Shown here piece by piece: positions 1,193 to 61,285 of a stretch of 64,000 nucleotides of DNA (position 1 is the stretch's first letter; every line of letters begins with the position of its first letter). The DNA is taken from the NCBI GenBank assembly GCA_016618085.1, contig JABLTG010000060.1, positions 36,283 through 100,282 on the forward strand, given 5' to 3'. Both the position numbers and the translations under genes were made by a program. Source of the DNA: Neovahlkampfia damariscottae. Taxonomy: Eukaryota > Heterolobosea > Selenaionea > Neovahlkampfiida > Neovahlkampfiidae. Under the pieces are notes generated by a model that had not been told where the DNA came from, made no database searches, and was given only the letters and a program-made list of their open reading frames with translations.

Positions 1193-1201
1193 AACCAATC
1201 A
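1193..1201 (+). promoter_or_regulatory. CCAAT box of the BAG-like gene
   Basis: AACCAATCA lies 27 nt before the ATG at 1229 and only about 20 nt after the preceding stop codon. Confidence 0.6.
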
Positions 1202-1228
1202 TTTTGTTTTCAACTTTAGGTCACAAAA

Positions 1229-1519
1229 ATGAGAATTAAAACGAGTGAAGACAACGCAAAAAAAATTACAAAGGTTTCTGATAAAATTGATGAATATGAA
1301 CAAGAAATACATTTATTGATACAACAAGATCAAGAATATAGAGAAAAACTTTATGAACAATATTTAAAATATCAAGAATTATTGACACAACAAATGCTTA
1401 AATTAGATATGGTACATGATGATTCTCTGAAGAAATTAAGAAAAGAGCAAATTAACAGACTTCATAAATTATTAAAACCAATTGATAAGAGAGTTGAAGA
1501 ATATGATCCAAAAATGTAA
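1229..1519 (+). CDS. Small BAG-domain-like helical protein
   Basis: Single-exon, 96-residue protein that is almost entirely helical and charged. Residues about 40-85 look like the end of a BAG domain, the Hsp70 nucleotide-exchange module: a YxELLxQxxLKLD helix followed by a LRKEQINRLHKLLKPID helix, with Leu, Asp and Arg spacing as in that family. BAG domains bind the Hsp70 ATPase domain and release ADP. If the call is right, this is a minimal co-chaperone with only a coiled-coil lead-in. It could instead be an unrelated coiled coil, because composition alone favours such matches. The start is the first ATG after the CCAAT box at 1193, and the frame has no intron signals. Confidence 0.55.
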   Translation: MRIKTSEDNAKKITKVSDKIDEYEQEIHLLIQQDQEYREKLYEQYLKYQELLTQQMLKLDMVHDDSLKKLRKEQINRLHKLLKPIDKRVEEYDPKM

Positions 1520-1570
1520 TAAAAAATTAAATTCAATTTTGCAAAGTTGATAAAATCATTCTTTTTCTTT

Positions 1571-1579
1571 GACCAATTA
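1571..1579 (+). promoter_or_regulatory. CCAAT box of PGGT1B
   Basis: GACCAATTA lies 20 nt upstream of the ATG at 1600. The whole intergenic space from the previous stop is 80 nt. Confidence 0.6.
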
Positions 1580-1599
1580 AAAAAATTCCGTACAACAAA

Positions 1600-2786: not shown

Positions 2787-2928
2787 TAGATTAAATTTTG
2801 AATTAATTTTTAAATTCAATTCTTTTTCATTTAAGTGTACAATTTTCAAAAAATTGATTTTAAAATGAACAGCTTTTCAACCTGACAAAAATCACCATTT
2901 TTGGAAAATCTTTTTTTAACTCAAATTT

Positions 2929-2937
2929 TAATTGGAT
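2929..2937 (+). promoter_or_regulatory. CCAAT box (reverse) of the RCC1-TIG gene
   Basis: TAATTGGAT lies 28 nt before the ATG at 2966. Its ATTGGATAAT wording recurs upstream of the EGF gene at 19002-23714. Confidence 0.45.
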
Positions 2938-2965
2938 AATTAGAGTTACTTCTGCAGATTTACAG

Positions 2966-11602: not shown

Positions 11603-11618
11603 AATATATTCTAATTTT

Positions 11619-12528: not shown

Positions 12529-12540
12529 AAAAAAAAAACA

Positions 12541-12549
12541 ACCAATCAA
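12541..12549 (-). promoter_or_regulatory. CCAAT box of the 292-aa membrane protein gene
   Basis: ACCAATCAA on the plus strand lies 12 nt from the ATG at 12528, separated mostly by a run of T on the sense strand. It sits in the 73-nt gap after the upstream RGS-TPR gene. Confidence 0.6.
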
Positions 12550-12601
12550 AATGCAATAGTTGATTTTACATAAGTTGTCATTAAGTTCAATCAATAAAAT
12601 T

Positions 12602-14622: not shown

Positions 14623-14637
14623 CGGCAATTGACTTTT

Positions 14638-14646
14638 GATTGGTGG
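14638..14646 (-). promoter_or_regulatory. CCAAT box of the RGS-TPR gene
   Basis: GATTGGTGG on the plus strand (CCACCAATC in sense) is 15 nt from the ATG at 14622 and excludes the two-residue longer frame. Confidence 0.6.
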
Positions 14647-17362: not shown

Positions 17363-17371
17363 TGATTGGAG
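17363..17371 (-). promoter_or_regulatory. CCAAT box of the EF1A-DUF4116 gene
   Basis: TGATTGGAG on the plus strand lies within a 47-nt gap between the stop of the VWA gene (17385) and the ATG at 17337, 25 nt from that ATG. Confidence 0.6.
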
Positions 17372-18916: not shown

Positions 18917-18925
18917 GGCCAATCA
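18917..18925 (-). promoter_or_regulatory. CCAAT box of the VWA gene
   Basis: GGCCAATCA on the plus strand is 23 nt from the ATG at 18893; flanking TTGGCCAA makes it a CCAAT on both strands. Confidence 0.6.
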
Positions 18926-19001: not shown

Positions 19002-22000
19002 TTAAACTTGATATTCGTCAATTGAAAATTTTGGATCAATATAAAACTCTGTTGACATTTTCATGGATTGAACAGGTGGTGTTTGATCTTGTTTTACTGA
19101 TTCTTTCGGGATTTCAAATTGTTTTGATTTTGTCAAAAGAACATCTTCATGAAATTTCATTTTTTTTACCATGAAGTCATCAACTGATATTTCTTTTTGA
19201 GTTTCTAATGATTTGATTTTTTCAATATCTTCAACTCCAATTCTCATGTGTTTGTAAAAGCAATTTGGACCTCCACAAATTTTGGCCAATTTAATTTCAT
19301 TTCCTTTTTTCAATTGAAGTAAATATTTTGCTGGAAAATTTTCGCACCATTCACAAGGAGCATTCAAAAATGAAAAATTGGTTTTCAAATTTCTAGATGA
19401 AATAGTTTTGAACATTCTCATTCCTTTCTTTCCTCTGAAAAGAAGAATAATTAAAAGTGGTACCAAAATAATAAAGCATAAAACCAATAAAAAGATAATT
19501 CCAAATGGTGTTGCAACCAACATCCATTCTGCTTCAAAACCAACAATTGATCCTGTTTTTATTTTTGGTACTGCAAATTTGATAAAGTATTGATCTTCTT
19601 CATTTTTCCAACAAGCTGAAGGTTCAACAAAAAATGATAAAGAACATTCATATTCTTCCAATAATGTTTCTAACTCCAATTGAATTGAATAATTACCAGT
19701 TTTATGAATGAATGAACCAATTTTTGGTTTTGAAACTTTATCAGTTGAACAATTTAAAATTGGATGAAAGTGAGCAATTTGTTTTGTATTAGATAATTGA
19801 AAATTGAAGATTGCCGTTTTGTTGCTCACAAATACTGACTTGATTAACAATTTTAAATTTTCGGTTGATTTTTGACTGACAACATTAGTTGAAATATTTT
19901 CTTTAAAATTTGCTAAATATTCAGCATCAACAAGTTGACAAAGATTGATATTCGTTTCAGTTCTGACAAATTTCGATCCATCTTCAAAACAACTGTCAAA
20001 AACCTTCTTTGTGTAAGTTGAATTTGTTGTGCAATTTGAATCCAAAAATTGTGAAGAAATTTGATTCAACAGTTTAAAGTTACTTTCCAAAATGCATTCA
20101 TTTCCAGTTGTTATATTTGAGCAAATTTTTGTTGAATTTATCAAAGAGATTCCAGTACATTGAGTTGCAATACTGATATCAATATTTCTTGCTTGAGTAT
20201 TTGCAGTTTTGACCACCAAAGAGTCAATTTTGTTCCTTGAAACGTCAAATGGTATCAACAATGAAAGTTCTTGAACGTTATCACAAATTTCACAATTTGT
20301 TCCATTGAATCCATTATCACATAAACATTGATCTAATTTTTGACAAACTCCTTTTCCTGAGCATACTGAGCTATTTGATGATAAAATTCCTTGACAAGTT
20401 GTATTTGAACATTCAGAACCAAAATATCCTTCAGAACAACTACAATTATTTAAAGATAAACAATTTCCATTTCCTGAGCAAACCATTGAATTTGAACTGT
20501 TTTTGTTGAAGCATTCAGTAAATTGACATTGATTTCCAGAATATGATGGTTTACAATCACATTTATCAGGTGAAGAACATTCTCCATTTCCAGAGCAAAC
20601 ATTTGAGTCTATTGAGTTTAATCCAAAGCAAATAGCAAGTTGACAAGTTTTTCCAGTGTATCCAGCAGAACATTTGCATGTATTTGGTGAAATACAATTT
20701 CCATGTGACGAACAGACTGTCTTTTCATTTGAATTTGTTCCAAAACAGATGTTTAATTCACATGATTGTCCTGTAAAACCTGGTTTGCAACTACAACTAT
20801 TTGGAGACAAACAATTTCCATTTCTTGAACATACATCAGGATCAGTTGAATTTTTTCCGAAACAAATCGGAAGTTGGCAATCATTTCCAGTAAAATCTAT
20901 ATCACATGAGCATTTATTTGGTGAAGAGCAGATTCCATTTCCTGAACAAACATTTGGATCTGAACCATTTTTTGAAAAGCAAATTGGAGTTTCACAATCA
21001 TTTCCAGTGTATCCAGAAGTACAACTACATTTGTTTGGTGAAATACAAGTTCCATGTGATGAACAAACTGAATTGCTTGATGAATTTTTTCCGAAACAGC
21101 TAATATATTCGCATGAACTCCCAACATATCCAAAAGAACAATTGCATGAATCTGGTTGATTACAAATTCCTCTTTTTGAACAAACATCAGGATCAGTTGA
21201 ATTCATTCCAAAACAAAATGGATATTGGCATTCATTTCCAGTATATCCATTTGAACAAGTACAATTATTTTCATCAATACAATTTCCATGACTTGAACAA
21301 ACTGTTGAATCACTTGAATTTTTTCCAAAACAAAATTCAGGTAATTCCATTAAATATCCATCATAAATTTGAATTTTCATTTCTTTGTTGATATTTTTAA
21401 GATTAGAGCTCCAAAGTTTTTTCTTTTGAATGGAAACAATGATTGAACAAGTTTCATTTGAATCAATTTTTGAAGTAGTTGAAATTGAATATTCAATTGA
21501 AGTTGATTCATTTGATTTTAACATTTTTTGAATTGGATCTCCTGAAAAAATAATATTATTTGTACAATTCAAAAAGATAGTGAAGTCTCCAGATAATTCT
21601 CCTGAGTTAGTAATATTTGCAAATATTTGAGCATGATTTTCAAATTGTCTGATTGAATTCACTTTCATTTTTAATTCACCAATTTGAATTTTTGGTTCTT
21701 TGAATCCAATAAAAGTTCTATCAACAGTAACATTCATGGATACTGAGCTTGTTTGTAATTTTGAAAATTGAATTTTTAATTGATGATCAACACATTCATC
21801 CCCTAAACAGTTTGGATTTTTTGCAAATTGAACATCATTCTATTGAAAGTTAATTGAATTGTTTCAGTTTACCAAAAGAAATCTGTTGTAATAACCTGAA
21901 AATCTTCCAATATTTTGTTGATCCCAATTTTGAAGGAAATATGATAATTGATTCTTTAATCCTGTTCCTTGAGGTAATGAACAAAATTCTTGTTGAATAG

Positions 22001-23714
22001 CGTTATTCCAAACTTTAGGTCCAGTTCCAATTGAGTTGATTTTCTCTTCTGAAAAAAATTTACGATTTACAAATACAAAATTGGAAATTGGAACATTTTC
22101 ATTGATATTACTACGAGCTGGAATAATAATTTGATCATTTTTTAATAAATCTAAAATAAGGTTAAAATTATGAAATTTACTGATTGTTTGCTCAACATCA
22201 GAATCAAGAACTGAAATTGATAGTTTACCATTCATTGAATGAATTGAATTCATACTTGATGTAACTGAATACTTTTGATTGGAAACTTCAATATTGAATG
22301 CTGAACTTTGAGTATGAACTGTTGATGAAATATTCATCACTTCAAAAATCTTTGAATTATCTGACATCCATGCGTGATAAACTTTTGAACAAGTTGGACA
22401 TTCTGAATTTCTGAGAGAACCAGTTGGACAAGTTTTTCCATTTTGCATTGAAAGATAAACAATTTTCCATAGTCTATAACTTCTTCCATTTACATGTTCA
22501 GAAACAATTCGAATTTTTTCTCCATTTGAAAAAGTCATTTCTCCCATATAATCAAACCACCATGGAATGTTAATTACAAGATCTTTAGCGTTGAGAACTC
22601 TCCAGATACTTCCAAGTGGAAAAGTGTAATACTCTTTAAATTTAAAGGATGTATCTCTGATAAAAAAACTTGTACTACTTCCTAAAAATCCATCAAGTAA
22701 TGATTGAACAAAACTTCTAAAAAAAAATGAATAAATGAATTTTTTTTTCTTTACTCTGAAACAATTCGTTCAAATGGTAAATTTGTCACACTATCTCTAT
22801 GAGCTTGAGCGATTTCAAAAACTGGAGCAGTATACTGGGTGAATTTTACATCTGAAACAAATGAGTCTTCTTTTAAAGCAGGTGTAACTCTGAGTGGTTT
22901 TACTAATTCATAAAACTCATCTTCAAACGTAAAATTTTCAGTATAAAATTCATTGAAATTTGTTTTGAAAGTGATTTTTTCTGAAGCTTCTTCATAAATT
23001 ATTTCATTTTTTACAGTTGAATTTTTTGACAAAGTTGAAGGTGAAATGCCTGTGTTGTTGTAAGGTGTAGGAATACAAAAATCGGCAGTAGTTGATTTTT
23101 TTGTTGTGATTACGTTAGTTCTTGAAACTGTCCATCTTGAAGTGAATTCGTTTTCATAAGATCCAACTTTAAAGGAATTGGAAACAACCAATGAAAATTC
23201 AGGAGCAAGCGGAAGTGAAGAAAAACCAAACAAAACTTTGTTTCTGCTGAAACGTTGTAAAGTTGTTGGTTTATGGATGGTTGTTGAACCTGATGATAAG
23301 TACTGTTGTGAAATTAGTTATTTCTAAAAAAAACTTACAACTGCTGCTTCACTTTGATTTTTGATGTTAAAATCACCCAACAACTTACCTTGGAATGTTA
23401 TAGCTAGATATTTCAACCTTTTGATTCAAGTAGTTGAGAAGGAGTAACTCGGAAGCAAAGTCCGAAAAAATGTCTTTTGTTTCTCCAAAATTTCGAGTAA
23501 CTCTTTGGGAAAGGTGTTAGAGAATCAAAATGACTTACGAAATGTCTTTAGAAAACTGAAGTACGATGTTAACTGTTGTTTGTGTTGAATAGAAGGTGCT
23601 TGAAAGTGTAGGAGTGATATCTAAGCATTGAGAAACTTGAAATTGAGCAGCAATGAAGGAAAATTGAACAAAAAATGTTAAAATTTTGACGATAAGTGAT
23701 GTTTGGCGTTGCAT
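19002..23714 (-). CDS. Type I membrane protein with nine EGF-like units (tandem paralog A)
   Basis: Seven exons: 23539-23714, 23389-23502, 23339-23351 (13 nt), 22755-23302, 22181-22716, 21873-22150, 19002-21839; 1,500 residues. The intron 22151-22180 is 30 nt without a stop and is recognised only by comparison with paralog B. A signal peptide starts MQRQTSLIVKILTFF and ends near IAAQ. The ectodomain to about residue 720 is novel to me, with TFSNGEKIRIVSEHVNGR and CPTCSK. Nine units of about 39 residues follow (about 720-1070; CFGKNSSDSTVCSSHGNC type, 6 Cys plus NSS sequons). A juxtamembrane beta region leads to a membrane helix near 1330. The tail has CEWC then CGGPNC, a possible zinc site. 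It is probably an adhesion or recognition receptor; ligand unknown. Confidence 0.88.
20283..21346 (-). repeat. EGF-unit array of paralog A (9 units of about 117 nt)
   Basis: Tandem in-frame units of about 39 codons, each with VCSxxGxC and CxCxxGYxGxxC Cys spacing. Two stretches, 20283-20610 and 20998-21346, appear identical base for base to 25474-25801 and 26540-26888 in paralog B. Confidence 0.85.
22151..22180 (-). other. Stop-free 30-nt intron hidden in the reading frame of paralog A
   Basis: The sense strand reads gtaaat...ttttag. Its length is a multiple of three and it has no stop, so it looks coding. Removing it turns the protein into VEQTINLLKND, which matches VDQTIDVLKNH in paralog B, where the intron is at the same place. 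Confidence 0.75.
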
Positions 23715-23730: not shown

Positions 23731-23789
23731 CATTGGATAATCTAATTTATGGTTTTGATCATTGACCAATGAAAATTGTTGGCCAATGA
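23731..23789 (-). promoter_or_regulatory. Cluster of three CCAAT boxes of EGF gene A
   Basis: CATTGGATA (23731-23739), GACCAATGA (23764-23772) and GGCCAATGA (23781-23789) lie 16, 49 and 66 nt from the ATG at 23714. Confidence 0.6.
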
Positions 23790-24192: not shown

Positions 24193-27100
24193 TTAGACTT
24201 GATATTTGTCAATTGAGAATTTAGGATCAACATAAAATTCTGTTTTCATTTTGACTGATTGAACAGGTGGAGTTTGGTCTTGAACTACAACTTCTAAAGG
24301 AATTTCAAATTTCTTTGATTTAACTAAAAGAATATCTTCATGGAATTTCATCTTTTTTACTAAAAAGTCTTCAACTGAAATTTCTTTTTGATTTTCTAAT
24401 GATTTGATTTTTTCAATATCAGCAACACCAACTCTCATATGTTCATAAAAGCAATTTGGATTTCCACAAATCTTGATCAATTTAATTTCATTTCCTTTTT
24501 TCAATTGAATTAAGTATTTGGAAGGATTGTTGAAGCACCATTCACAAGGAAGATTTAAAGTTGAAAAGTTAGCTTTCATATTTCTGCTTGAAATTGTTTT
24601 TAATAATGTGTAACTTTTCTTTCCTCTGAAGATAAGTAACAATAAAAGTGGTGTTAAAATAATGCAGCAAATAAGTAATAAAAAGAGAACTCCAAGTGGT
24701 GTTGTAACAAAGATCCAAGTTGCATCATATCCAGCAGCAGCTGTAGCAGTTTTTGTTTTTGGAACACTAAATTTGATGAAGAATTTGTCTTCTTCATTTT
24801 CCCAGCAAGCTGAAGGTTCAACAAAAAATGATAAAGAACATTCATATTCTTCTGCCAACATGTCTAAATCCATGTAAATTGAATGATTTCCAACAGAGTG
24901 AACAAAAGATGAAATTGCTGTTTTTGAGACTATTCCAGTTGAACAATTTAAAATTGGATGGAATTTCGCAATTTGTTTTGAATTTGATAATTGAAATTTG
25001 AAAGTTGCAGTTTTGTTTGAGAAATTCATTGACGCACCTAAGATCTTGACTGCTTCAGTTGGACTTTGATGATAATCAAAATTTGGTGGTGGCACTTGTT
25101 GAAATTTGTCAAAGTATTCAGAATCTACGAGTTTGCAAAGATCAATTTTGTGATGACTTTCAACTGATTTCATTCCATCTTCAAAGCAACTATCAAATAC
25201 TCTCTTAGTATAATTTGAGTTTGTAGTGCAAGTGGTATTCAAGAATTTGGATGTAATTTCACCAATAAGTTTGAAATTGCTTTCCCATTGACATTCATTT
25301 CCAGTTGTAATATTTGAACATTTCTTTCTTGGATTTTTTAAAAAGATTCCTTTACATTTGATCTCGAAATCAATATCAATATTTCTGTGATGAGTATTTC
25401 TACTTTTGACAAATAAATGATTTGAATCTGAAACATTCAATGGAATTAATGATGATAATTTTTTGGAATTTAGACAAATTTCACAATTTGTTCCATTGAA
25501 TCCATTATCACATAAACATTGATCTAATTTTTGACAAACTCCTTTTCCTGAGCATACTGAGCTATTTGATGATAAAATTCCTTGACAAGTTGTATTTGAA
25601 CATTCAGAACCAAAATATCCTTCAGAACAACTACAATTATTTAAAGATAAACAATTTCCATTTCCTGAGCAAACCATTGAATTTGAACTGTTTTTGTTGA
25701 AGCATTCAGTAAATTGACATTGATTTCCAGAATATGATGGTTTACAATCACATTTATCAGGTGAAGAACATTCTCCATTTCCAGAGCAAACATTTGAGTC
25801 TGTAGCACTATTTCCAAAACATATAGCTATGTTACATTCAGTTCCCATAAATCCTGAATTGCAAATACATCCATTTGATGATTTGCATTCTCCTTTTCCA
25901 GAACAAACTTGAGGATCTATTGAATTCTTTCCATAACATATTGGATATTCACATTCATTTCCAGTGTATCCAGAAGTACAACTACATTTGTTTGGTGAAA
26001 TACAAGTTCCATGTGATGAACAAACTGAATTGCTTGATGAATTTTTTCCAAAGCAAATAAATAATTGACAATTGTTTCCTGTATATCCGGCAGTGCAATT
26101 GCAATTGTTTGGTGATAAACAATTTCCACATGATGAACATACTGTTGATTCATTTGAATTTGTTCCATCGCAAATACTAAATTCACATGAGAATCCAACA
26201 TATCCTGAGTTACAAGCACATTGATTTTTTGTGATGCAATTTCCATGACTTGAACAAGCATTAGGATCAGTTGAATTTTTTCCAAAACAAATCGGATACT
26301 GGCAATCTTTTCCTGTAAAATCTACATCACATGAGCATTGATTTGGTGAAGAGCAAACACCATTTCCTGAACAAACATTTGGATCTGAACCATTTTTTGA
26401 GAAGCAAATTGGAATTTTGCATTCATTGCCACTGAATCCTGATGAGCAGTTACATTTGTTTGGTGAAGTACAAATTCCATGAGAAGAGCAAACAGCAGAA
26501 TCAGTTGAATTCTTTCCGTAACATATTGGATATTCACATTCATTTCCAGTGTATCCAGAAGTACAACTACATTTGTTTGGTGAAATACAAGTTCCATGTG
26601 ATGAACAAACTGAATTGCTTGATGAATTTTTTCCGAAACAGCTAATATATTCGCATGAACTCCCAACATATCCAAAAGAACAATTGCATGAATCTGGTTG
26701 ATTACAAATTCCTCTTTTTGAACAAACATCAGGATCAGTTGAATTCATTCCAAAACAAAATGGATATTGGCATTCATTTCCAGTATATCCATTTGAACAA
26801 GTACAATTATTTTCATCAATACAATTTCCATGACTTGAACAAACTGTTGAATCACTTGAATTTTTTCCAAAACAAAATTCAGGTAATTTCATTAAATATC
26901 CATCAAATATTTGAATTTTCATTGTTCGATTCACATTTTTGAGATTATTTGACCAGAGTTTTTTTTTTTCAATATTGGCAATCACTGTGCAAGACTCATT
27001 TGAAGTAATTTTTGAGTTTGAAATGATCAAAAATTGCAAAATGATTGTTTCATATGCGTCAAGAGTTCTTTGTATTGAATGTCCAGAATAAATTATATTG

Positions 27101-29272
27101 TTTGTGCAATTCATTGAAACTGTGAAATTTCCAGAGAAGTCACCTGAATTAGTGATGTTTGCATAAATTTTAGCAGTATTTTCATATTTTCTTGTTGTGT
27201 TGACAATCATTTCCAATTCAGAAATAAAAGCAGTTGGTTCTTTCAATCCAATAATTGAAGCATCAACCGAAATATTCATTGAAACAGAACTTTTTTGCAT
27301 TTTTGAAAATTGAATTTTGAAATGATGATAAAGACAATCTGCTCCTAAACAAGCAGGGTTTTTCACAAATTGGACATCATTCTAAAAATACATTTAAATT
27401 AACAATAGTCTGTTACCAAAAGAAATCTGTTGTAATAACCTGAAAACTTTCCAATGTTTTCCTGGTTCCAATTTTGAAGAAAATGTGAAAGTTGGTTCTT
27501 CAATCCACTCCCTTGAGATGATGAGCAAAATTCTTGTTGTGAGATGCTGTTCCAAACTTTTGGACCAGTTCCTATTGAATCTGAATTATATTCTGAAACA
27601 AATTGACTGTTTACAAAGAGTAAATAGGAAATAGAAACATATGAGTCGATGTTGAAACGAGCAGGAAAAATTATTTTGTGGTTTTTTAATACATCTTTGA
27701 TTTCAATAATATTTTGATCTTACCAATTGTTTGATCAACATCTCGATCGGAAATTTCAATATGTACTTTTTCATCGACTGAGTTGGCAACATTTGTTGCA
27801 GATGAAATGGAATAATTTTGCTTTGAAACTTCAATGTCGAAAGTTGCACTTTGGGTATGTGTTGTGGAAGTGATGTTCATAATTTCATAAATACGTGTAT
27901 TATCTGACATCCTAGAAACTGTTAAATTTGAAAAGAAAAATACCATCCATGAGCGACATTTGAGCATGTAACACATTGTGAATTTCTTGCAGACCCAGTT
28001 GAGCAAGTTTTTCCGTTAATTGATTCAAGGTAAATTATCTTCCACAATCGGTATGTTCTTCCATTCACGTGTTCTGCAATGATACGGATTCTTTCACCAT
28101 TTGAAAATGTCATTTCTGCTGTATAGTCGTACCAATATGCCAGGTTGTTTACAATCTCTCCAGTGTCAAGAAGTCTCCAAATGGTATGAACTGGATATTC
28201 ATAGAAGTTCTTGTAGGCAAATGTATAATCTCTGACCATAAAAGTAGTATTGCTTCCAGGGAAATCATCCAGTAACTTTTGGACATAAGACCTTGTGAAA
28301 AGTTGAATCAAAATTTTTTTTACTCGGAAACCACATGCTCAACTGTCAAGTTTGTCATGTTATTTCTGTTCCCTTGAGAAATTTCAAAGTTTGGAGCTGT
28401 ATAACCTGCAAATTTGGCTTCTGATAACAATGAATCTTGTTTTGTTGGCACTACATGAAAAGGTTGTTTTAATTCATAATCTTCTCCATCAATATTAAAT
28501 TCTGTGACAGAAAGTTCTTTAAAATTTGATTTGAAAGTTATCTTGTTTGAAATTTCTTCATAAGTTATTTCTGTTGCAGAATCACCTGGTGGTGTTGTGT
28601 GAGTGATGTTTGTTGTATTGAAAGTTTGAATACAGAAATTCACAGCACCTGTAGTATTTTCTGTTTTGATCATGTTAGTTCTTGAAATTGTCCATTTTGA
28701 AGAAAACTCATTTTCGTATGAACCAATTCTGAATGAATTAGAAACAATTAACGAAAATTCAGTGACAAGTGGAAGACTTTCAAACCCAAATAATACTTTT
28801 GAGCGACTAAAACGTTTTAAAATTGATGGTTTGTGATTTGTAGCTGTTCCTGATAACAAGTACTTGATGAAAAATTAAATTAGAATCAACAAATTATATA
28901 CCACTGCAGCTTCACTAAACAAGAATGAATTGAAATTCTGTTTTACCTTGGGATATTAAAATCCGTGTATTCAACCTTTTGATTTAAGTAGTTAAGTAGT
29001 TGATTATCAGAGCTGAAATCGGTGAACATGTCTTTGGTTTCATGAAGAGATCTGGTGACTCTGTGAAAATATGTCAGCTAATGTTTTCCTTACGAAACTT
29101 CTCTTGAGAATTGAATAGTGATATTGAGTTTTGTTTCCCCAGTTGAAAATGAGCTGGAAAGGGAGGGTGTGATGTCAAAACATTGATAAACTTGGAGTTG
29201 AGCAGCAACAAGCGAGACTTGAAGGGTGAGAAATAATACTATGACAGCAGCAAGTGCAGGGTTTTGTTGCAT
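24193..29272 (-). CDS. Type I membrane protein with twelve EGF-like units (tandem paralog B)
   Basis: Eight exons: 29094-29272, 28947-29060, 28902-28914 (13 nt), 28324-28862, 27944-28291, 27724-27911, 27417-27694, 24193-27381; 1,615 residues. It has the same plan as the gene at 19002-23714: signal peptide MQQNPALAAVIVLFL, ectodomain of about 700 residues (TFSNGERIRIIAEHVNGR), 12 EGF units (about 720-1185), membrane helix near 1440-1465 and a tail with CEWC plus CGNPNC ending in YQV. Six intron positions match paralog A; intron 27912-27943 is absent there. Three extra EGF units account for most of the length difference. The start is ATG 29272, because the in-frame ATG at 29347 lies upstream of two CCAAT boxes. 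Ligand and pathway unknown; the conserved tail suggests intracellular signalling or anchoring. Confidence 0.88.
25474..26888 (-). repeat. EGF-unit array of paralog B (12 units of about 117 nt)
   Basis: The array includes internal copies. The unit starting CFGKNSSSNSVCSSHGTC occurs twice (near 25958-26055 and 26540-26640), each followed by a CYGKNS unit, so a block of units was duplicated inside the array. Confidence 0.85.
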
Positions 29273-29299
29273 TTTTTGTGTTTTTAATGAGAATTTTTC

Positions 29300-29339
29300 A
29301 ATTGGTTTATCGCATTTTATTATATTATCCAACCAATCA
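29300..29339 (-). promoter_or_regulatory. Two CCAAT boxes of EGF gene B
   Basis: AATTGGTTT (29300-29308) and AACCAATCA (29331-29339) lie 27 and 58 nt from ATG 29272. The second is flanked by TTGGATAAT in sense, as in EGF gene A. Confidence 0.6.
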
Positions 29340-29636
29340 CATTGCATTATTCCCGTTTTCTCCTTCGTTTGCTGTTATTTTGAATTGAAAATTAACCAAA
29401 GTTCTTTAACATCAAAGTCATCATCTTGTACAAGTTACCTATTTTCAAAATAAAAATTTCAACCCAACAAGTATCCGTTGAGAAAAGTAAAATAATTGGA
29501 AATATTTCACACCAATCATAATCTGTGATTTGTTTGACGTTGAATTTTCAATTTCTGAATTGCCAAACTTTGAAAATTACCAATTCGAATCATAAATAAA
29601 CTTCAAAGTTTCAAATAATCTTCAAGTGATTACCTT
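29340..29636. other. Spacer between EGF gene B and the SH2 gene
   Basis: About 300 nt, AT-rich, with no frame I can support; it holds the 3' flank of the SH2 gene. Confidence 0.5.
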
Positions 29637-30886
29637 TTATTTTTTAAATTCTGAAATGACTTCTTCTTTTGCTCCAAGTTCACTAAAATCTCTTGATTTT
29701 AATGGACCCCAAAAATAAGTAAAATCCATTTTCCTTTTCCTCGCAATAGAATCAGGAGGTAAATCTTGATAGCTAAAAACCTTCTCCACTTTAATTTTCT
29801 TATCATCATAAGGATACTTAAAAGACAATGAATATTTTTCAATCAATGATTTCAATGATGTTTTTGTTTTTTCTGATGTTGTCAAATAATATAATTCTTC
29901 TTGTTGATAAACTTTAAAATGAATAGTTGAAGGTTTATAATTTATATCTTCTTCAACACATGAAATGTAAATACAACCAGGTTCTTTTTCATTAAATCTA
30001 ACTAAAAATGTTCCAATTTTTTGTGAATCTAATAAATTTTGACATACAAGTGAACTCATTGATCCAAAAAAATAATTTGATTCACATAATGATTCTACAT
30101 TATCAATACATTTGTTAAATGGTCCAAACCAATTTAAAAAGATTTTAAAGTCTCCAGCAGAAACAATTTCATCAGATGTTGGATCTAAAATTGTGGCAAC
30201 ATAATCTTTGAATGGTTTGAATTTCTTTTTCATTGCATCTACAAATTTTTCTTTTGGAATACCAAAATTCTTTATAAGTTTTAATTTTTTTTTTCTTCTT
30301 ACTTGTCCTCCTACTGTTTCACACCAGAATTTATTTGCTTCTTCGTCAGTATCAGAAACTTTGAATTTAATATCTGGATGATTTCTTTTCTTTTCTCTTT
30401 CAAATTGTTGTAAGAATCTTTCTAAACAAACAAGTCCTTGACCATGTAAATTTAACAACATCTTTATTTTTTTTTGAATTAAAAAATAAAAAAGATTACC
30501 TCAGTTTCATCTTTTAAGTCAAAGTATATTTTGATATTGATGTTAGACATTTCTTTTTTTTTAAAATCATTTTCAAATCTTTGATTAAAACAGTGAAGAA
30601 TTTTTAAAAGACAAAAGAAACTAGCATTCACAAGTTCAGAACCAGTCACTCTTTTGGATGAATAGTCTTTATCAAAATAAGCAAATTTTGTTCCCATGGT
30701 TCTGAAAACGTTTCTTAGAGAAGCATAAGATTCATGTCCGACTGTATTTTCAACAGCTGTATTAAGAGCTGAATTAATTCCTTTTATTCTATCTTTGATT
30801 GTTCCTCTTGCGTTAAATGGGTCTCCATCTTCAGGAGAAGACAATATACCAGCTGTTAACCGTTGTGATAAACGACTGGTCAACAT
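29637..30886 (-). CDS. SH2-domain protein with STAT/Cbl-like linker
   Basis: Exons 30500-30886 and 29637-30461 (38-nt intron); 403 residues. The SH2 domain spans about 275-375: GTFLVRFNEKEPGCIYIS carries the FLVR Arg that binds phosphotyrosine, followed by TIHFKVYQQEELYYLT and a SLKSLIEKY helix. Just before it is a helical segment (SDEIVSAGDFKIFLNWFGPF) like the EF-hand-type linker that packs on the SH2 of Cbl and STAT proteins. The N-terminal half is helical and not recognised. No kinase, RING or DNA-binding domain is visible, so this looks like an adaptor. The start at ATG 30886 lies 7 nt from a CCAAT box; the upstream in-frame extension crosses that box. Phosphotyrosine binding is inferred from family residues. 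Confidence 0.82.
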
Positions 30887-30893: not shown

Positions 30894-30902
30894 GATTGGA
30901 CA
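30894..30902 (-). promoter_or_regulatory. CCAAT box of the SH2 gene
   Basis: GATTGGACA on the plus strand is only 7 nt from the ATG at 30886, leaving almost no room for a 5' UTR. Confidence 0.55.
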
Positions 30903-30994: not shown

Positions 30995-31003
30995 GACCAA
31001 TCA
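30995..31003 (+). promoter_or_regulatory. CCAAT box of ERO1
   Basis: GACCAATCA is 33 nt upstream of ATG 31037, in the 150-nt divergent spacer shared with the SH2 gene. Confidence 0.6.
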
Positions 31004-32615: not shown

Positions 32616-32624
32616 GATTGGTTA
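32616..32624 (+). promoter_or_regulatory. CCAAT box (reverse) of STT3
   Basis: GATTGGTTA is 36 nt before ATG 32661. A CACGTG palindrome lies just upstream, near 32601-32606. Confidence 0.6.
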
Positions 32625-36080: not shown

Positions 36081-36089
36081 ATTGGTTGA
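36081..36089 (-). promoter_or_regulatory. CCAAT box of the hydrolase gene
   Basis: ATTGGTTGA on the plus strand is 56 nt from ATG 36024 and directly abuts the stop region of the upstream GT10 gene (36096). Confidence 0.5.
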
Positions 36090-37515: not shown

Positions 37516-37524
37516 TGATTGGAC
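37516..37524. promoter_or_regulatory. Shared CCAAT box between divergent GT10 and TOM1-like genes
   Basis: TGATTGGAC lies 66 nt from ATG 37449 (minus gene) and 51 nt from ATG 37576 (plus gene). It is the only good CCAAT in the 126-nt spacer, though a near-match ACCAACCAAA sits at 37537. Confidence 0.55.
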
Positions 37525-39686: not shown

Positions 39687-39695
39687 AGCCAATGA
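39687..39695 (-). promoter_or_regulatory. CCAAT box of the SEL1 gene
   Basis: AGCCAATGA on the plus strand is 27 nt from ATG 39659 and decides that start over the longer open frame. Confidence 0.55.
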
Positions 39696-39969
39696 AATCG
39701 GTGGTGAATTCAAAGAGAGTTTAAAGTGAATAAATAAACAAACTTTATAGAAACGATCAATGGTAACTTTATACACGGAATATAGGTGCCGTATACTTGA
39801 TTGTACTTGGTTTTTTTGGTTTTTTAAAATTTTACAAATTTCAAATGAAAAAAGATCAAAGAAAATCCTTAACTGAAAATATACATTTTTATAATTTATT
39901 TCATTTTGGAATAATTGATCAAAATTCATCATATTCAAATATTCATCTTGAATTTCAATCAAAGTTTTT

Positions 39970-40435: not shown

Positions 40436-40439
40436 TAAT

Positions 40440-40448
40440 TGATTGGGT
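40440..40448 (-). promoter_or_regulatory. CCAAT box of the 132-aa membrane protein gene
   Basis: TGATTGGGT on the plus strand is only 4 nt from ATG 40435, the shortest box-to-ATG distance in the window. Confidence 0.45.
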
Positions 40449-42105: not shown

Positions 42106-42131
42106 CTATTGGTCAAAAAATCGTCCAATCA
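42106..42131 (-). promoter_or_regulatory. Two CCAAT boxes of PKA regulatory subunit 1
   Basis: CTATTGGTC (42106-42114) and GTCCAATCA (42123-42131) are 15 and 32 nt from ATG 42090, in opposite orientations. Confidence 0.55.
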
Positions 42132-42225: not shown

Positions 42226-42234
42226 GGACCAATA
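42226..42234 (+). promoter_or_regulatory. CCAAT box of TMEM209
   Basis: GGACCAATA is 33 nt before ATG 42268 in the 177-nt spacer divergent from PKA regulatory subunit 1. Confidence 0.6.
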
Positions 42235-42267: not shown

Positions 42268-44032
42268 ATGAACGAAACTTTTACTCCAATTCAAAAAAGA
42301 CCTACATCCGGTATTCGTCCTTATCAATCACCTCATTTGAAGGATGCTAATTTTATAAGAAAAATAGCTCATTCAAAAGAAGAAGAGTCGAATTTACGAA
42401 AAAAAAAATTATTTTTCCATTTTTTAGGATTTATTTTTTGTTTTATAATTTTAAATGTGACACAATTTAGGTATAAATTTCAATTATCTTTAATTTAAAA
42501 TGTTTTAGAAACTTTTTTGAATTTTTTGGTTTTTCAAAATTCGTATTTTATTTTCTTGGATATTTGGGTTTAATTTTATATTTTTGTTTTCTTTTATTGT
42601 ACATTTATGTTATGATTAGTAAATCAAAAAGTTATACTTCAATAAAAAGACCTGAAAAATTACCTTTTTCAGATTCTGATATAAAATCAATGACACCAAA
42701 ACAAATTTCATTATTAGGTCTTGATCATTCAGAAATTCAAGAATATTTGAATAAAAAAATAGAAAAATCAAAAATAACACCAGAAATAAAAAAAGAACAA
42801 CCATCATTTCAAACAATAGAAGATGATGATTTATTTTTTTCATCTTTAAGAAAAAAACCACAAACATCATTTAGATATGGAACATCACCACAAAGAAGAA
42901 TTGAAGACTCAAATAAAAAAATATCAAATTATTCAAATGAAAAAAAAGATCAATCATTTTTTGGTAAAAACAAATTAAAATTTTAAAAAATGAAAGATTA
43001 TGAAAGTCCTATTTCAAATGAAAGAGATTTAGAAAAATATTTGAAGAAATATAAATTTGATCATCCAACAAGTTCAAAAGAAGGAAAGATTAATTTCACT
43101 CCAAATTATGAACAAACAATGTCATATAGATTATCACCAATACCAAAATCAGTAGTACAACAAAGTTCATTTGACTATGGAAATTATAATGAAAAGGCTG
43201 CAAAAGTTTTAGAAGAATTTGGAATTTCAGGAATTGATATGAGTCAATATATTGAAAGAATGAGAAGATGGATGTTTGATAGAATATTAAAACCTATTAT
43301 TGATAATATTGATGATGTAAATAAACAATTGAAAGAACATAATTATGAAGGTTATGATTGTTATCATTTATTAGATTCATCACCACCTTTAGGTTTATAT
43401 ATTCCACCAAATACACCATTACCAACATCAGGAAAATTAACATTACGTCATATTTTACAACATCAATCACAAGGAAATACAATCATTACAAATAGGATTT
43501 TATTAGAAGAATATTTAGATATACCAAATTGTAATCGTAGATATTTGATAGAAAGATTACATGATTTATCATCTGGTGGTTATTTACCAAGATTTAAATG
43601 GAATTCTGGTGGTGAATTTAATTCACATCCTTGGAATGATAAAGATTTACCAACTGATTCTCAAATACTTTTACATTTATTTTGTAAATATTTTGATTTA
43701 TCTTTACCATCACATCCACTTTATGGTCAAATATCATTCACACAAAGACATTTTATAGATCAAACAATTGATAACAAATGTAAAAAAAAAAATGATTAAT
43801 TTTATATTTAGTAATGGGTAAATCTGGTATTTATATTGCTCAAACAAAAAAATACCCACCTCATTTCAATGTAATTTTCTCATCAAAAACATTAGAAGCT
43901 CAAAGTGGAAGAAATAATCTATTTTATGTTTTGGTTTTATTTGTTTATTTAATTAAAACTAAATTTAATGGATACCTTGATTCACTTCAAATTTCTGATT
44001 CTTCAATCGACTTGGAACACATTTTCCAATAA
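42268..44032 (+). CDS. TMEM209: TMEM209-like nuclear envelope membrane protein
   Basis: Exons 42268-42470, 42509-42963, 42997-43779, 43812-44032 (introns 38, 33, 32 nt); 553 residues, close to the 561 of human TMEM209. Two membrane helices lie near residues 49-64 and 85-110. A Ser-rich disordered segment follows, with SLLGL and Pro/Arg motifs. The conserved C-terminal domain starts about residue 230: WMFDRILKPIIDNIDDVN, YLIERLHDLSSGGYL, then YPPHFNVIF and SGRNNLFYVLVLFVYLIKT, the last matching the family's GRNN(M/L)FH end. In animals this protein sits at the nuclear envelope with nucleoporins. Each of the three splices removes an in-frame stop and restores family sequence, so the model is firm. 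Exact function in this organism is unknown. Confidence 0.88.
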
Positions 44033-44059: not shown

Positions 44060-44068
44060 TCATTGGTC
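44060..44068 (+). promoter_or_regulatory. CCAAT box (reverse) of BCKDHA
   Basis: TCATTGGTC is 13 nt before ATG 44082; the gap from the preceding stop (44032) is just 49 nt. Confidence 0.6.
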
Positions 44069-45394: not shown

Positions 45395-45420
45395 ATAAAT
45401 GTTTTTCCAATTTTATTATT

Positions 45421-45429
45421 GACCAATCA
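45421..45429 (+). promoter_or_regulatory. CCAAT box of the HDAC gene
   Basis: GACCAATCA is 12 nt before ATG 45442, inside a 47-nt intergenic gap after BCKDHA. Confidence 0.65.
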
Positions 45430-46850: not shown

Positions 46851-46859
46851 CGCCAATCA
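46851..46859 (+). promoter_or_regulatory. CCAAT box of NEMF
   Basis: CGCCAATCA is 36 nt upstream of ATG 46896 and therefore points to the tiny first exon rather than to ATG 46946. Confidence 0.6.
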
Positions 46860-49977: not shown

Positions 49978-49983
49978 AATTCT

Positions 49984-50549: not shown

Positions 50550-50584
50550 TGTTTAAAATTTGTTCAAAAGTGTAAAAAAAAAGG

Positions 50585-50617
50585 TGATTGGTTAAAATTT
50601 ATGAATTATGATTGGAC
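50585..50617 (-). promoter_or_regulatory. Two CCAAT boxes of the COX6B-like gene
   Basis: TGATTGGTT (50585-50593) and TGATTGGAC (50609-50617), both CCAAT in sense, are 35 and 59 nt from ATG 50549. Confidence 0.6.
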
Positions 50618-50648
50618 ACAATTAAAATTGGATAAAATAATTCAATTT

Positions 50649-51908: not shown

Positions 51909-51913
51909 CACGT

Positions 51914-51922
51914 TGATTGGTT
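51914..51922 (-). promoter_or_regulatory. CCAAT box of PKA regulatory subunit 2
   Basis: TGATTGGTT on the plus strand (AACCAATCA in sense) is 5 nt from ATG 51908. Confidence 0.55.
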
Positions 51923-52037
51923 AAATCTTCGTTACTGAAAAATTTATAAATAGGTTATATTTTGTACCCTTTCCAATTTTCATTAATTTTCATATATTTT
52001 TGTCAAAACTGACAACTCTTTCCAATTTAACTTCATT

Positions 52038-52046
52038 GACCAATCA
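52038..52046 (+). promoter_or_regulatory. CCAAT box of the RNA polymerase I gene
   Basis: GACCAATCA is 32 nt upstream of ATG 52079. Confidence 0.65.
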
Positions 52047-52078
52047 TCAGTTGATAAACTTGAAAAAATTTTTGCACA

Positions 52079-56930: not shown

Positions 56931-56955
56931 AAAATTTGTTGAGAAAAAAAAAAGT

Positions 56956-59900
56956 TTAAAATCCAGTTAAATTTCTAACATCTTGTAATTTTTTTTTGAT
57001 TTCAGATGGTGTTCTATCTAATTCATCTGCAATTGATTTTTGTTTTTCGATTGACATTTTTTCATAAGTGTCCAATAAATCACCATCAACACAATTTTTT
57101 ACTGGAAAATAATAAGAAACAAAACTTAAATGATCTCTGCCAACTAAAGAAGTTCCATCTTGTCTCAAATGCATTTCTAATAAAGAAAAGAAATCAACAT
57201 CTTCTTTACTTGAAAATGGAACTAAACAACCAATTGTACCAAAAATTGTAAAATAAAGTAAAACACCTGGTGATCCTGGTACAAAATTTGCTTTACATAA
57301 ACTAGTAACAGTTTCACCAAGATGAAAAGAAACAATTTCTTTTGCTTTTTGAGGAGCACCACCTAAAAATCCTCTTTCCCACATGAATCTATTTGAAGTT
57401 GGATCATCTTCAATAGAATCATTAATATCTTCTGGTAATCTTGAAATAAAAACATTTCCAAATTTATCTGAACCTGCCATTGTACTATAATCAATTTGAG
57501 TTGAAGCAGTTAACCATCTTGGAACAGTACTATCTGCAAAAATTGAAAGAAATTGTTCATCTTCTTTAAATTTAACATAATGAAATGATTCAGCAATATC
57601 ACCAACATAAATTCTTTTTCCATTATGAGAAATTGAAATAATCTTATTTGGAAATGATTTGTTTTCACTTTTTTTTAATAATTTTTTCTTTCCTAAATCA
57701 TAAACTCTTAAGAATTTACCCATTCCAACTAATAATCTACCTTGAAACTCACAAAGAGCAGTTGGAACATCTTCTAATTCAGTTTGATGTAATAATTCAA
57801 TTTTTTTTCCATCTTTATCAAATTTATAAACATTTAAACAACCACCTGAATTTTTTGAAGGATAAAGTTGTAAATCTTTTGCAATACCAACAATTAAATA
57901 AGTTTCTTTATCAGAGAATTCACATGTTGTTAAATTAAATGCAGCTTCATTATTTTTTAATTCTAAATATTGAGTTGTAATTGTATCTTCATTTGATTTT
58001 TCATTAATTGAATTTGTATCAATAAGTCTAATATAAGATGCCCATTTTCCATTTTTATTTGGTCTTAATTTTTCAAATTCACTATCTTGTTCATTTTCTT
58101 CTTCAATTTCCATTTGTTCTTGTTTAAAATTTTCTAATTCTGATAATTTATATGCATTATGATCAGTTTCTAAAATTATCATATTTTTTGTTTTTGGATG
58201 AAATATAAATTTACGAGGTGTATATTTTAATGGAAATATTTGTTGATTAAATACTTCACCTAATTTTTTAATTGAAAAAACAACTAATGTATTTCCTGTT
58301 ACTGCAACTAAACCTTCCGAACATTGTTCTGATGAAAAATTTGATGCAGATTGTAATGGTTCATATGATAATGGTGTCATTTGAAATTTATTTTGATAAA
58401 AATAACATAACCATGATCTTGAAGAAAGTACTAAAACTGAATTGGATTTTTGTGTTTTTACATTAACTAAACGTAATGGTTTTGAACCTAAAAATCTAGC
58501 TCTTGTATCAAATAATTCACCTGTAAGTGAATCCATTACATTTTTAATTAAAACACCATTATTTAATCCAATATATAAATTTAATTCTTTTGAAGAAGAT
58601 GATGAATTTAACATTTCTGTAATTGTAATACTTTCTGGTTCTGCTGGAATTGCTTGTCTTGTTAAAACTTGTAAACAATCTTCTGTATCTAAAGAGAATA
58701 TTCTAACAGTTTTATCATATAAACCAACTGCTAAAAATCTATTTCTAATTCTACCTTCTGGTACACTTCCAATTGATAAACATGCAATATCTTGACCCAT
58801 ATCTTTTCTTTCAACTTCAACTAAAATACCTTGTTGATTTAATTCAAAATAAATGATTTCTCCACCACTTAATGCAGCAACAACTTGTGATTCATTTGCA
58901 GCAGCTCTTATAATTGTTTTTTTACTTGACCATTCAATTGTTTTATTTTCACCATTTAATTGTTGTTTAATTTGTCTTAAACCAGTTGGATGAATTTGTA
59001 AAATTGAATCTTTTCCTAATAAAGAAACTGATAAAGTTGAAGATAAAGTTTCAAAACCAGAATCAGTTACTTGAGCAACTTCTTTTCCAATTGAAAATAC
59101 CATAGTTCTACTTGAAAATGATAAAACAATATAATTATCAAATTCTTCTTTCATTGATTTTTTAACAGTCCAAACATTAATTGGAACACCAGGTAATTTA
59201 ACAGATGCAAATTGTTCAATTGGTAAACCATGTTTTAAAATTCTTAAAGTTGAATTTTCTGATCTTCCACAAATTGTATAAATATTTGGTGTTTGATTAT
59301 TTTTTAAATCAATTACTTTTGCATCAATTATTGGTGATAATGAATTAATATTTTCTTTTAATTGTAAATTCTTTAAATTTTTATGAATATTAAATAAAGG
59401 AATAGTTAATTTTTTTGAAATTTCAACTTTTGATACAAAATTATTTTCATCTTGTCCTAATGATTTAAATTGATAAATTTTATGATCTCCAAATTCAGAT
59501 GCAACAAAAATAGATGCACTTTTAATTAAAATACAAATTGAAATTGCAATTGGAATAGTATCAAAATAAAAAATATTAATTTTTGAAACTTGATTTGATT
59601 TATGATCTAAATTTAATTTAAATAAATCACCTTCTTCATTTTGAATAAAAAATATAATTTGTTTTCTTTTAATTGTACTTGATGCAATTATCATATTTCC
59701 ATTACTATAATCATCATCTTTTCTTAATCTTCTTGGTACAATTGTTGAAATATCTTTTTGTCCTGAATTTCTATATGTAATTTTATCAGATGAACAAATT
59801 AAAACTCCACCAGGTCCATCATTTCCACCAGGTACAGATATTAAATGATATGAACTTTTTTCAACTTCTTTTGATATTTTTTTGACTACATGATTTGAAC

Positions 59901-60579
59901 TTAAATCAAGTTCATAAAATGTTAATACTTTTTTTGAAACTGAATCTAATTCTTCTGATGTTTCATCACTTTCTGTATGATCTAATTCTAAACATGCAAA
60001 CATTGGACTTTCATATCCAACGTCAATTCCAACCATACTATATATAACTGTATTAGATGAATGTGCTTCTAAAGGTGATGAAATTGTTAATCTATTTGAT
60101 GTATCTCTATTTAAAACATAAACAAATTTTTGTTTTTCAATAGCTCCAATCATTATTGCTCTTCCTTTTGGATCTACAGCTAAATATTCACCAGGTACAA
60201 TTCTACGACAACCTGTTTTTCCAAATGTTTCTTGATGTACTTTTATAAATTGATTCTTTTTTTCATCGTATTCAAGAATTACAAGTCTACCTGAATCACT
60301 TCCAATAGCAATATAATCTTTTTGGAAACCTGTTTTTTTTTTTTATGAAAGAATTTTATTTTTACCTGTCACTCTAAATGATGATATACTCCTAATCAAT
60401 CCAAAAACTTCGGAAGATAAGACTACTTTCATTTTTGTTGAATTTTCTTCTTGTTTCCAAAGTTCCAATATTTTTCCTCTTGATATCAGAATATCTTGTG
60501 ATTTTGGTCCAGAAAAGCTGCCAGTAATTGCTTGTGTAATAGCTGTTGCTTTCTGTAACGTGTTGTTCAAAAGATGCAT
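56956..60579 (-). CDS. SF3B3: Splicing factor SF3B3 (SAP130)
   Basis: Exons 60366-60579 and 56956-60329 (36-nt intron); 1,195 residues against about 1,217 in human. SF3B3 is the three-propeller scaffold of the SF3b complex in U2 snRNP, which grips the branch-site region with SF3B1. Signatures: MHLLNNTLQKATAITQAI at the start, SRGKILELW, GCRRIVPGEYLAVDPKGRA, TISSPLEAH, VPGGNDGPGGVLICS, and the end DRTPSEIKKKLQDVRNLTGF. The intron completes RVTGFQKDYIAIGSDSGR. ATG 60579 was chosen by family alignment and by the CCAAT box 21 nt upstream; 12 in-frame codons further upstream overlap the box. The stop is 25 nt from that of the RNA polymerase I gene. Confidence 0.96.
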
Positions 60580-60600
60580 GTTGGTGATTGTTGAAGTGTT

Positions 60601-60609
60601 GACCAATGA
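60601..60609 (-). promoter_or_regulatory. CCAAT box of SF3B3
   Basis: GACCAATGA on the plus strand is 21 nt from ATG 60579. Confidence 0.6.
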
Positions 60610-61276
60610 AATCAATTTTAGAAAAACTTTTTTTGTTTTTTTTTTCTAAAATTTGAAAAAACAGAGTTTTAAAACTCAATCTACTTAGCCTTCAAATTTT
60701 AATGTTTAAAATACATAGGATTCCGGAAAAAATGATTTTTCTCAAAAATGAAGAAAAATGGAGAATAATTTGAATTTATTGAACATGCCTTCATCATTGA
60801 TATTCCAAATTTTCTTTCAAAAATTTTCTCCTCTTTTTTTTTAAGCAAAAATTTTTGGAACTCCACAATTCAAAAATAAAAGGTGTTTTGTTGAGGGACA
60901 CCAAGGCCAAACTGATTTTTTACCGTGTTTTCATCAAACTCTTTGAATCAAACGTGAAAGATTGATTGTTTGAGCATCATTGTTCAATGTCAGTTGGTTC
61001 AAAAGCGAATAATTTTAAAAGCAAGAATAACAACAGGTTTGAGTTGACTGTATTTTTGATTTCATCATTTGGTTCCAAAGATTCATTTTATTTGTTTCAA
61101 ATTGTTGATGTTGTTTATTTTCTTCAAATAAGTTTAAATAAACAACTTTCGAAAAAACATTGATTTTTTTATCCAATCAAATTGTTCGTTGTTGATTTTG
61201 TTTTTTTTTTTTGAAAAAAATCTTCCATTTTTTATGTTTTATTAATTAATAATTTTAATTTACTAAAAAACCTTTT
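60610..61276. other. Largest internal intergenic stretch
   Basis: About 670 nt between two divergent genes. A 65-codon frame at 60966-61163 has no recognisable domain. A short hairpin can form (GGTGT at 60882 with ACACC at 60898). The block 60880-61110 is less A/T-homopolymeric than typical spacers here, so an unrecognised RNA or decayed gene is possible. Confidence 0.4.
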
Positions 61277-61285
61277 TGATTGGAG
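61277..61285 (+). promoter_or_regulatory. CCAAT box (reverse) of the second ankyrin gene
   Basis: TGATTGGAG is 38 nt before ATG 61324. Confidence 0.55.

Follow-up and report, generated by a model that had tools for sequence, protein, structure and literature searches.

In a 64-kb stretch of the genome of the heterolobosean Neovahlkampfia damariscottae (the window; it lies on C264, one of the 307 contigs of an assembly that totals 20,439,759 bases), nearly all gene starts were found to be closely preceded by the pentamer CCAAT or its complement ATTGG. We found that this box has flanks of the NF-Y type, lies near the start codon, is used in both orientations and is in excess at the level of the whole genome, and that genes for the NF-Y subunits are present in the same genome. 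CCAAT is probably the main and nearly general promoter element of this compact genome, most likely bound, whichever way it faces, by the NF-Y trimer whose genes are found there. From the sequence we infer the occupancy of the box by NF-Y, the position of the transcription start sites and an effect on transcription.

CCAAT boxes upstream of start codons

The window contained 237 CCAAT/ATTGG words. Its starts were curated by eye, some being shifted to another ATG or to a short first exon, and in this curation, which was not blind to the boxes and omits a gene at ~24.2-29.5 kb (-), 25 of 26 starts had a box within 66 nucleotides (nt) upstream. The remaining start (37449, -) had its box at 73 nt. 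When the starts of the gene finder were left uncorrected, a box lay within 66 nt in 20 of 29 cases in the window.

Gene starts in the window and beyond it were predicted by a semi-Markov gene finder with GT-AG introns and an order-2 intergenic model, which is hardly able to learn CCAAT. An earlier coding model, which kept 15 candidates, mostly internal starts, was dropped for it. The gene finder was applied to the window and 20 stretches at contig starts (264 kb on 21 contigs, to which the counts below refer unless stated otherwise) and gave 224 genes with a median intron of 34 nt. Only starts of genes with a coding length of at least 300 nt were counted. Genes shorter than 240 nt were excluded from the intergenic-region and box-density counts, and gaps shorter than 10 nt or with runs of N from the intergenic counts.

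Among the uncorrected predicted starts, 101 of 150 had a box within 66 nt upstream and 112 of 149 within 100 nt. The upstream enrichment that had been predicted from the window was confirmed on the 20 other contigs alone, where a box was present within 66 nt of 81 of 121 starts and within 100 nt of 90 of 120. The last 66 nt before stop codons contained a box in 19 of 151 cases; past the ATG, 26 of 152 sequences had one in the first 100 nt and 35 of 152 in the next 100 nt. Two further controls take in the promoters of neighbouring genes: the zone from -200 to -100 contained a box in 67 of 149 cases, and the 100 nt that follow stop codons in 55 of 150. Box positions peaked in the bins from -60 to -20 relative to the ATG. 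On the 20 contigs, 30 starts had no box within 100 nt; many of them had coding sequence upstream (seen by eye, uncounted), and many of the box-less predicted starts look like gene-model errors, that is, mis-called internal exons.

CCAAT/ATTGG showed the largest difference between upstream and coding sequence among all 5-mer pairs (81/121 vs 19/123 on the 20 contigs), and the top upstream 7-mer in an unbiased count was CCAATCA, found in 64 of 149 sequences compared with 3.0 in dinucleotide shuffles. The pentamer occurred 12.6 times per kb in the 70 nt upstream of starts, 3.8 times in other intergenic DNA and 3.4 times in coding sequence; the chance rate first assumed (0.1 per 60 nt) was about half the real one of ~0.2 per 60 nt. 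RRCCAATSA, which is the NF-Y consensus, had densities of 4.09, 0.56 and 0.15 per kb in the same three classes and of 0 in introns (9 kb), so that its density just upstream of starts is ~27 times that in coding sequence. In the whole genome, RACCAATCA had 4081 sites and a reversed control word 194. A genome-wide test of order gave 404 and 342 boxes followed by AAAATG in the two orientations, compared with 249 and 185 cases of AAAATG followed by a box.

Starts anchored by homology were also considered. Twenty Ras-family matches on 17 contigs, each stop-free and beginning at profile position 1, were hand-picked before the upstream DNA was seen; the sample is not exhaustive, as two matches with long frames, that on C242 and several partial ones were omitted. 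The nearest box lay within 66 nt of 12, within 100 nt of 16 and within 150 nt of 19 of these starts. In one case (L072) the box that was counted probably belongs to the coding sequence; a different box stands 32 nt before the more likely start, which leaves the counts unchanged. In the genome there are at least 154 Ras-family matches (150 of 290 candidates scored), which is not a gene count because some genes match exon by exon. Seven stretches were fetched for tubulin. Six tubulin-type starts had their nearest box at 55, 81, 56, 328, 48 and 77 nt (3 within 66 nt, 5 within 100 nt), and the seventh stretch (L052, contig C247 near 49 kb) was set aside; by eye, its PF00091 match resembles FtsZ rather than tubulin (GGAGCNAI). 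In three H2B-type genes recognized by eye, the nearest boxes were at 88, 73 and 81 nt. The boxes of these H2B-type genes (L016-L018) span 73-114 nt upstream, and each is followed by AACGGTTTTTTT. Taken over the three families, the box is almost general, yet the range of 4-66 nt does not hold for every gene.

The aligned boxes read approximately TYRACCAATCA, which is compatible with RRCCAATSA and bears out the predicted NF-Y-type flanks on both sides. In the 68 boxes in CCAAT sense, the frequency of A or G was 0.77 at -2 and 0.71 at -1, and the final T was followed by C (0.63) and then A (0.82). Both orientations occur, as had been noted before: within 100 nt, RRCCAATSA was found 22 times in sense and 21 times in antisense, and the excess in the order test was alike in the two orientations genome-wide (155 and 157). 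The fixed orientation of the core-promoter class (TATA, initiator) was not found, 60 of 147 boxes within 100 nt being in ATTGG sense. The distance from box to ATG was broad, with quartiles of 23-54 nt and a median of 32-39 nt among those genes whose box lies no more than 100 nt away. In its sequence and its two orientations, the box matches an NF-Y element. Since both orientations are used, it is not a strictly directional core element, and it behaves as a start-proximal general element. The proposal that an NF-Y-like factor marks the core promoter stands in part: the enrichment, the flanks and the NF-Y genes agree with it, while strict universality and the fixed orientation of a core element do not hold.

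NF-Y subunits and an NF-YA-SNF5 fusion gene

The search for NF-YA, NF-YB and NF-YC genes suggested in the original prediction found all three. The genome has one full NF-YA (L009), one NF-YC (L012) and two NF-YB-like genes (L015 and L020, the latter assigned to NF-YB by eye). The core of NF-YA consists of a first helix that docks on YB/YC, a linker and a DNA-reading helix. The conserved core is complete in the NF-YA found here (PF02045 positions 1-56 of 56, 92.8 bits), which aligns to residues 2-66 of the 78-residue 4awl chain A (E 3e-21) and contains the reading segment SRHxHAxxRxRGxxGRF, with N replacing one of the two adjacent glycines before RF. The best PDB match of NF-YB (L015) was 4awl_B (143 bits, E 7e-41), compared with 58 bits for NC2 beta. 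NF-YC matched NF-YC chains with up to 157 bits (E 6e-45), compared with 43 bits for 5y26_B and 32 bits for NC2 alpha. Other histone-fold families were far below the NF-Y chains, except for the proteins of 9rif, in which "Oocyst rupture protein 1" reached 106 bits against NF-YB and "Oocyst rupture protein 2" 105 bits against NF-YC. Judged from these matches, the genome encodes canonical NF-YA, NF-YB and NF-YC. The words AACGGTTTTT and AAAACCGTTA recur near the promoters of genes on L009, L012, L016-L018 and L020, perhaps as a Myb-type site.

Moreover, a second gene carries an NF-YA segment. On contig C221 near 248 kb (L010:461-1581, -), an N-terminal NF-YA module is joined to SNF5/SMARCB1 and a GATA finger. 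The protein model covers NF-YA profile positions 32-56 (32 bits, above the cut-off; 26-56 on DNA), the SNF5 domain PF04855 (111 bits) and the GATA finger (46 bits), and the join spans a predicted 29-nt intron. Among PDB chains, SMARCB1 was the best match, with SFH1 and SNF5 below it and NF-YA and GATA chains matching weakly. The residues R274, H277, R281, R283 and F289 of human NF-YA, which we take to be those that read CCAAT, are all present in the module. A protein search with the fusion returned one protein at E <=0.01 among 1942 candidates, the environmental protein P0241 (327 aa, 46% identical), in which an NF-YA and an SNF5 part are predicted together, without a GATA match. Since P0241 carries both parts, an artefact of the gene model is unlikely. 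The identity between the two proteins was 24/31 in the 31-residue module, 22/44 in the linker and 102/220 in the SNF5 part. The first NF-YA helix is absent from both predicted proteins, which begin at the same place, and an upstream exon is possible.

No report of an NF-YA-SNF5 fusion was found in the open-licence literature. NF-Y pulls down SWI/SNF and RSC in two filamentous fungi, with contacts mainly via other subunits, and in budding yeast the NF-Y partner Hap4 has been reported to contact several SWI/SNF subunits, including Snf5 (PMC13221647). SNF5 proteins of filamentous fungi (AoSnf5, SFH1 group) likewise combine an SNF5 domain and a GATA finger; the text cited for these fungal proteins mentions no NF-YA module and does not contain the term NF-Y (PMC8055810), whereas the fusion described here has an N-terminal NF-YA reading module.

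These observations allow a reading in which the box is recognized mainly by a remodeller, whose SNF5 subunit would bind CCAAT through its NF-YA-type module, alone or with NF-Y, and so open promoters. The union of the three domains in one gene model, the same NF-YA and SNF5 join in P0241, the conservation of the module between the two proteins and the fungal pull-downs are in its favour. We nevertheless consider it unlikely, as a module without the first NF-YA helix may by itself bind weakly or less specifically, and canonical NF-Y is also encoded. A wider possibility can be offered tentatively, and as less than probable: CCAAT may be a general mark nearly at the start site with two readers, NF-Y and, directly, a remodeller of the SWI/SNF or RSC type in which the SNF5 subunit captured the CCAAT-reading module of NF-YA. 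If this were true, one and the same word would set both promoter opening and the choice of start site at nearly all genes. The fusion, present in two organisms, is a testable direct link between promoter word and remodeller; in the cited fungi, the contact is one between separate proteins.

Boxes and genes of the window

The window is gene-dense and has ~27% GC and very short introns. Its genes include those for the RNA polymerase I largest subunit, SF3B3, STT3, an EF1A-like GTPase with DUF4116 repeats and EGF-repeat proteins. The best database matches of SF3B3 were environmental entries, with 85% identity (JGI) and then 58%, and the nearest environmental entries to the RNA polymerase I gene were 51-56% identical. 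Each of the nine example positions first given for boxes had a CCAAT or ATTGG 1-2 nt away.

At the left end, the boxes at 1195..1199 (+) and 1573..1577 (+) lie 34 nt before ATG 1229 (+) and 27 nt before ATG 1600 (+), the latter of a prenyltransferase-repeat protein. The box at 2931..2935 (-; ATTGG on the + strand) is 35 nt before ATG 2966 (+) of a large gene model that contains TIG segments, ephrin-receptor-like segments and, by eye, an RCC1-like part. On the minus strand, a GDPD-like gene with a start curated by eye (ATG 12528) has its box at 12542..12546 (+), 18 nt upstream, a TPR protein (ATG 14622) at 14639..14643 (-), 21 nt upstream, and the EF1A-like GTPase (ATG 17337) at 17365..17369 (-), 32 nt upstream. 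The start of a VWA protein is ambiguous: its box at 18919..18923 (+) falls inside the longest open reading frame (ATG 18926) and takes an upstream position, 30 nt before ATG 18893 (-), only if translation begins at that in-frame ATG. ATG 23714 (-) of an EGF-repeat gene is preceded by a box at 23732..23736 (-), at 22 nt, and by further boxes at 23766..23770 (+) and 23783..23787 (+), at 56 and 73 nt. Large EGF-repeat genes stand in tandem at 19002-23714 and ~24193-29500 (-), with repeat blocks in common by eye.

The Cbl_N2/SH2 protein starting at ATG 30886 (-) has its box at 30895..30899 (-), 13 nt away, and its divergent partner (ATG 31037, +) has one at 30997..31001 (+), 40 nt away. The same Cbl_N2/SH2 protein (29637-30500, -) matches IBP39, the initiator-binding protein of Trichomonas, below the cut-off (23.7 vs 25 bits) and probably by chance. 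Boxes follow at 32617..32621 (-), 44 nt before ATG 32661 (+) of STT3, and at 36081..36085 (-), 61 nt before ATG 36024 (-), which is perhaps the first exon of an alpha/beta hydrolase gene, a joining of two models that we infer. A single box at 37518..37522 (-) lies between a divergent pair, 73 nt before ATG 37449 (-) of a glycosyltransferase family 10 gene and 58 nt before ATG 37576 (+), both starts being curated by eye; the two genes appear to use it in common. The box at 39689..39693 (+) is 34 nt before ATG 39659 (-), whose open reading frame has another upstream ATG at 39932, and that at 40442..40446 (-) is 11 nt before ATG 40435 (-).

A gene resembling, by eye, the cAMP-dependent protein kinase regulatory subunit (ATG 42090, -) has boxes at 42108..42112 (-) and 42125..42129 (+), 22 and 39 nt upstream, and ATG 42268 (+) has one at 42229..42233 (+), 39 nt upstream. 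Before ATG 44082 (+), of a branched-chain keto-acid dehydrogenase E1 alpha-like gene (by eye), boxes are found at 44026..44030 (+) and 44062..44066 (-), at 56 and 20 nt, and before ATG 45442 (+) at 45407..45411 (+) and 45423..45427 (+), at 35 and 19 nt. The curated ATG 46896 (+) of a NEMF/Tae2-like gene (by eye), which has a short first exon, is preceded at 43 nt by the box at 46853..46857 (+). Two boxes, at 50587..50591 (-) and 50611..50615 (-), lie 42 and 66 nt before ATG 50549 (-). Another gene resembling the cAMP-dependent protein kinase regulatory subunit by eye (ATG 51908, -) has a box at 51916..51920 (-), 12 nt away, and a further one at 51973..51977 (+), 69 nt away. The RNA polymerase I largest subunit (ATG 52079, +) has boxes at 52022..52026 (+) and 52040..52044 (+), at 57 and 39 nt. 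Finally, the box at 60603..60607 (+) is 28 nt before ATG 60579 (-) of SF3B3, and that at 61279..61283 (-) is 45 nt before the curated ATG 61324 (+) of an ankyrin-repeat protein (by eye) with a short first exon.

Transcription starts and comparison with other CCAAT promoters

Upstream ATG triplets become scarce only in the last ~30 nt before the start codon (11, 8 and 6 per 10-nt bin vs 16-33 farther up), which suggests that the boxes lie just upstream of the start sites. In most genes, transcription would start ~10-30 nt downstream of the box. No fixed start-site motif at a constant distance was clear in the base composition around the boxes, where there is slightly more T than A ahead of the box and more A than T from ~+20. 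TATA as a general element was rejected, with 10 sense and 7 antisense matches around the boxes and no enrichment in the sample; in the tubulin-type upstream regions, TATA-like words were near the box in 3 of 6 and far upstream in a fourth. TBP is encoded in the genome and looks ordinary by eye, so that NF-Y need not replace it.

NF-Y-type CCAAT elements normally lie ~60-100 bp upstream of the start site. With the median distance from box to ATG given above, such a spacing is unlikely for the genes that have a box within 100 nt, but one H2B-type gene fits it. The proximity of the box could in principle be a side effect of compaction, an ordinary upstream NF-Y element as in fungi and oomycetes having come close merely through short leaders and spacers. 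Spacers are indeed short (median 165 nt in tandem and 222 nt in divergent regions), and that H2B-type gene has the classical order and spacing of box and TATA. Moreover, CCAAT near start codons with equal use of both orientations is already known from Phytophthora (PMC3599244). Phytophthora infestans, however, has 1953 CCAAT hits in 17,797 gene models, and where box and initiator occur together, the box lies a median of 83 nt upstream of the initiator (PMC3599244). The distances found here leave little room for this arrangement, and we regard a mere effect of compaction as improbable.

A further explanation is that the box belongs to the transcribed leader and acts in RNA as a signal for translation or stability. 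Its closeness to the ATG, the lean toward CCAATCA in sense and the local shortage of ATGATTGG in sense would agree with this. On the other hand, RRCCAATSA is balanced in orientation, the genome-wide excess is equal in both orientations, and divergent regions are the richest in boxes (8.1 per kb, 2.94 per region, n = 35), compared with tandem (6.7 and 1.64, n = 84) and convergent ones (3.9 and 0.79, n = 24). Boxes bearing an ATG in sense (ATGATTGGTY before AAAATG) were about as common genome-wide as the mirror form (95/342 vs 119/404, p 0.63; chance matches not subtracted), so that the boxes do not look like translated leader. A role of the box in RNA is thus very improbable.

Several results weigh against a general NF-Y promoter element. 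The original claim of a universal box at 4-66 nt was an overstatement, since the Ras-type boxes reach out to 125-127 nt with broad distances and one of the 20 starts has no box in its stretch, and since one of the six tubulin-type starts has none within 300 nt. RACCAATCA occurs 47 times in the 264 kb, 38 times between genes and 9 times in predicted coding sequence, and 28 of the sites have a predicted start no more than 66 nt away. The ratios of the genome-wide order test are just 1.62 and 1.85. Part of the shortage of in-frame upstream ATGs arises from the way in which starts are called. There is a local lean toward CCAAT in sense, both for CCAATCA (49 vs 20, p 0.0006) and for the plain 5-mer (87 vs 60, p 0.03), and ATGATTGG in sense is locally rarer than CCAATCAT (3/20 vs 19/49, Fisher p 0.09); these two would fit some transcribed boxes, but the genome-wide counts do not repeat them. 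In three tubulin genes (L046, L047 and L048), 7, 3 and 0 nt separate the end of a TATA-like word from a box downstream of it, so near that bound NF-Y would crowd the TBP complex. The H2B-type gene on L016 has the classical layout, its boxes starting at 103 and 88 nt and its TATA-like word, nearer to the ATG, at 54 nt.

Even if these points are considered, CCAAT as a nearly general element bound by NF-Y is the reading that we find probable. The NF-Y trimer would bind the box as double-stranded DNA in either orientation, may keep the promoter region open there, and may help to place the general machinery, ordinary TBP included. The promoters resemble the NF-Y promoters of animals, plants and fungi in their RRCCAATSA-type flanks, the use of either orientation and canonical NF-YA, NF-YB and NF-YC. 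They differ in the position and share of the element. In mouse stem cells, bound NF-Y sites are at a median of 94 bp upstream of start sites, and 3191 genes are bound at the promoter and 21,195 are not (PMC6624317); here, a box within 100 nt was found at three-quarters of the predicted starts counted above (112/149), measured from the start codon and not the start site. Entamoeba is likewise an AT-rich amoeba with complete NF-Y, and its cyst nuclear extract binds CCAAT; in contrast, its NF-Y is tied to encystation, and CCAAT shows no concentration at any one position within the 500 nt upstream of cyst-specific genes (PMC6581852). No report of a start-proximal general CCAAT element beyond the cited systems was found in the open-licence literature.

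In the cited well-studied cases, NF-Y serves a share of the promoters from a proximal site. A start-proximal CCAAT at most of the genes examined bears on how large a part of the work of a compact promoter can fall to a proximal element, and the genome of Neovahlkampfia damariscottae offers a simple system for asking how NF-Y sets start sites.

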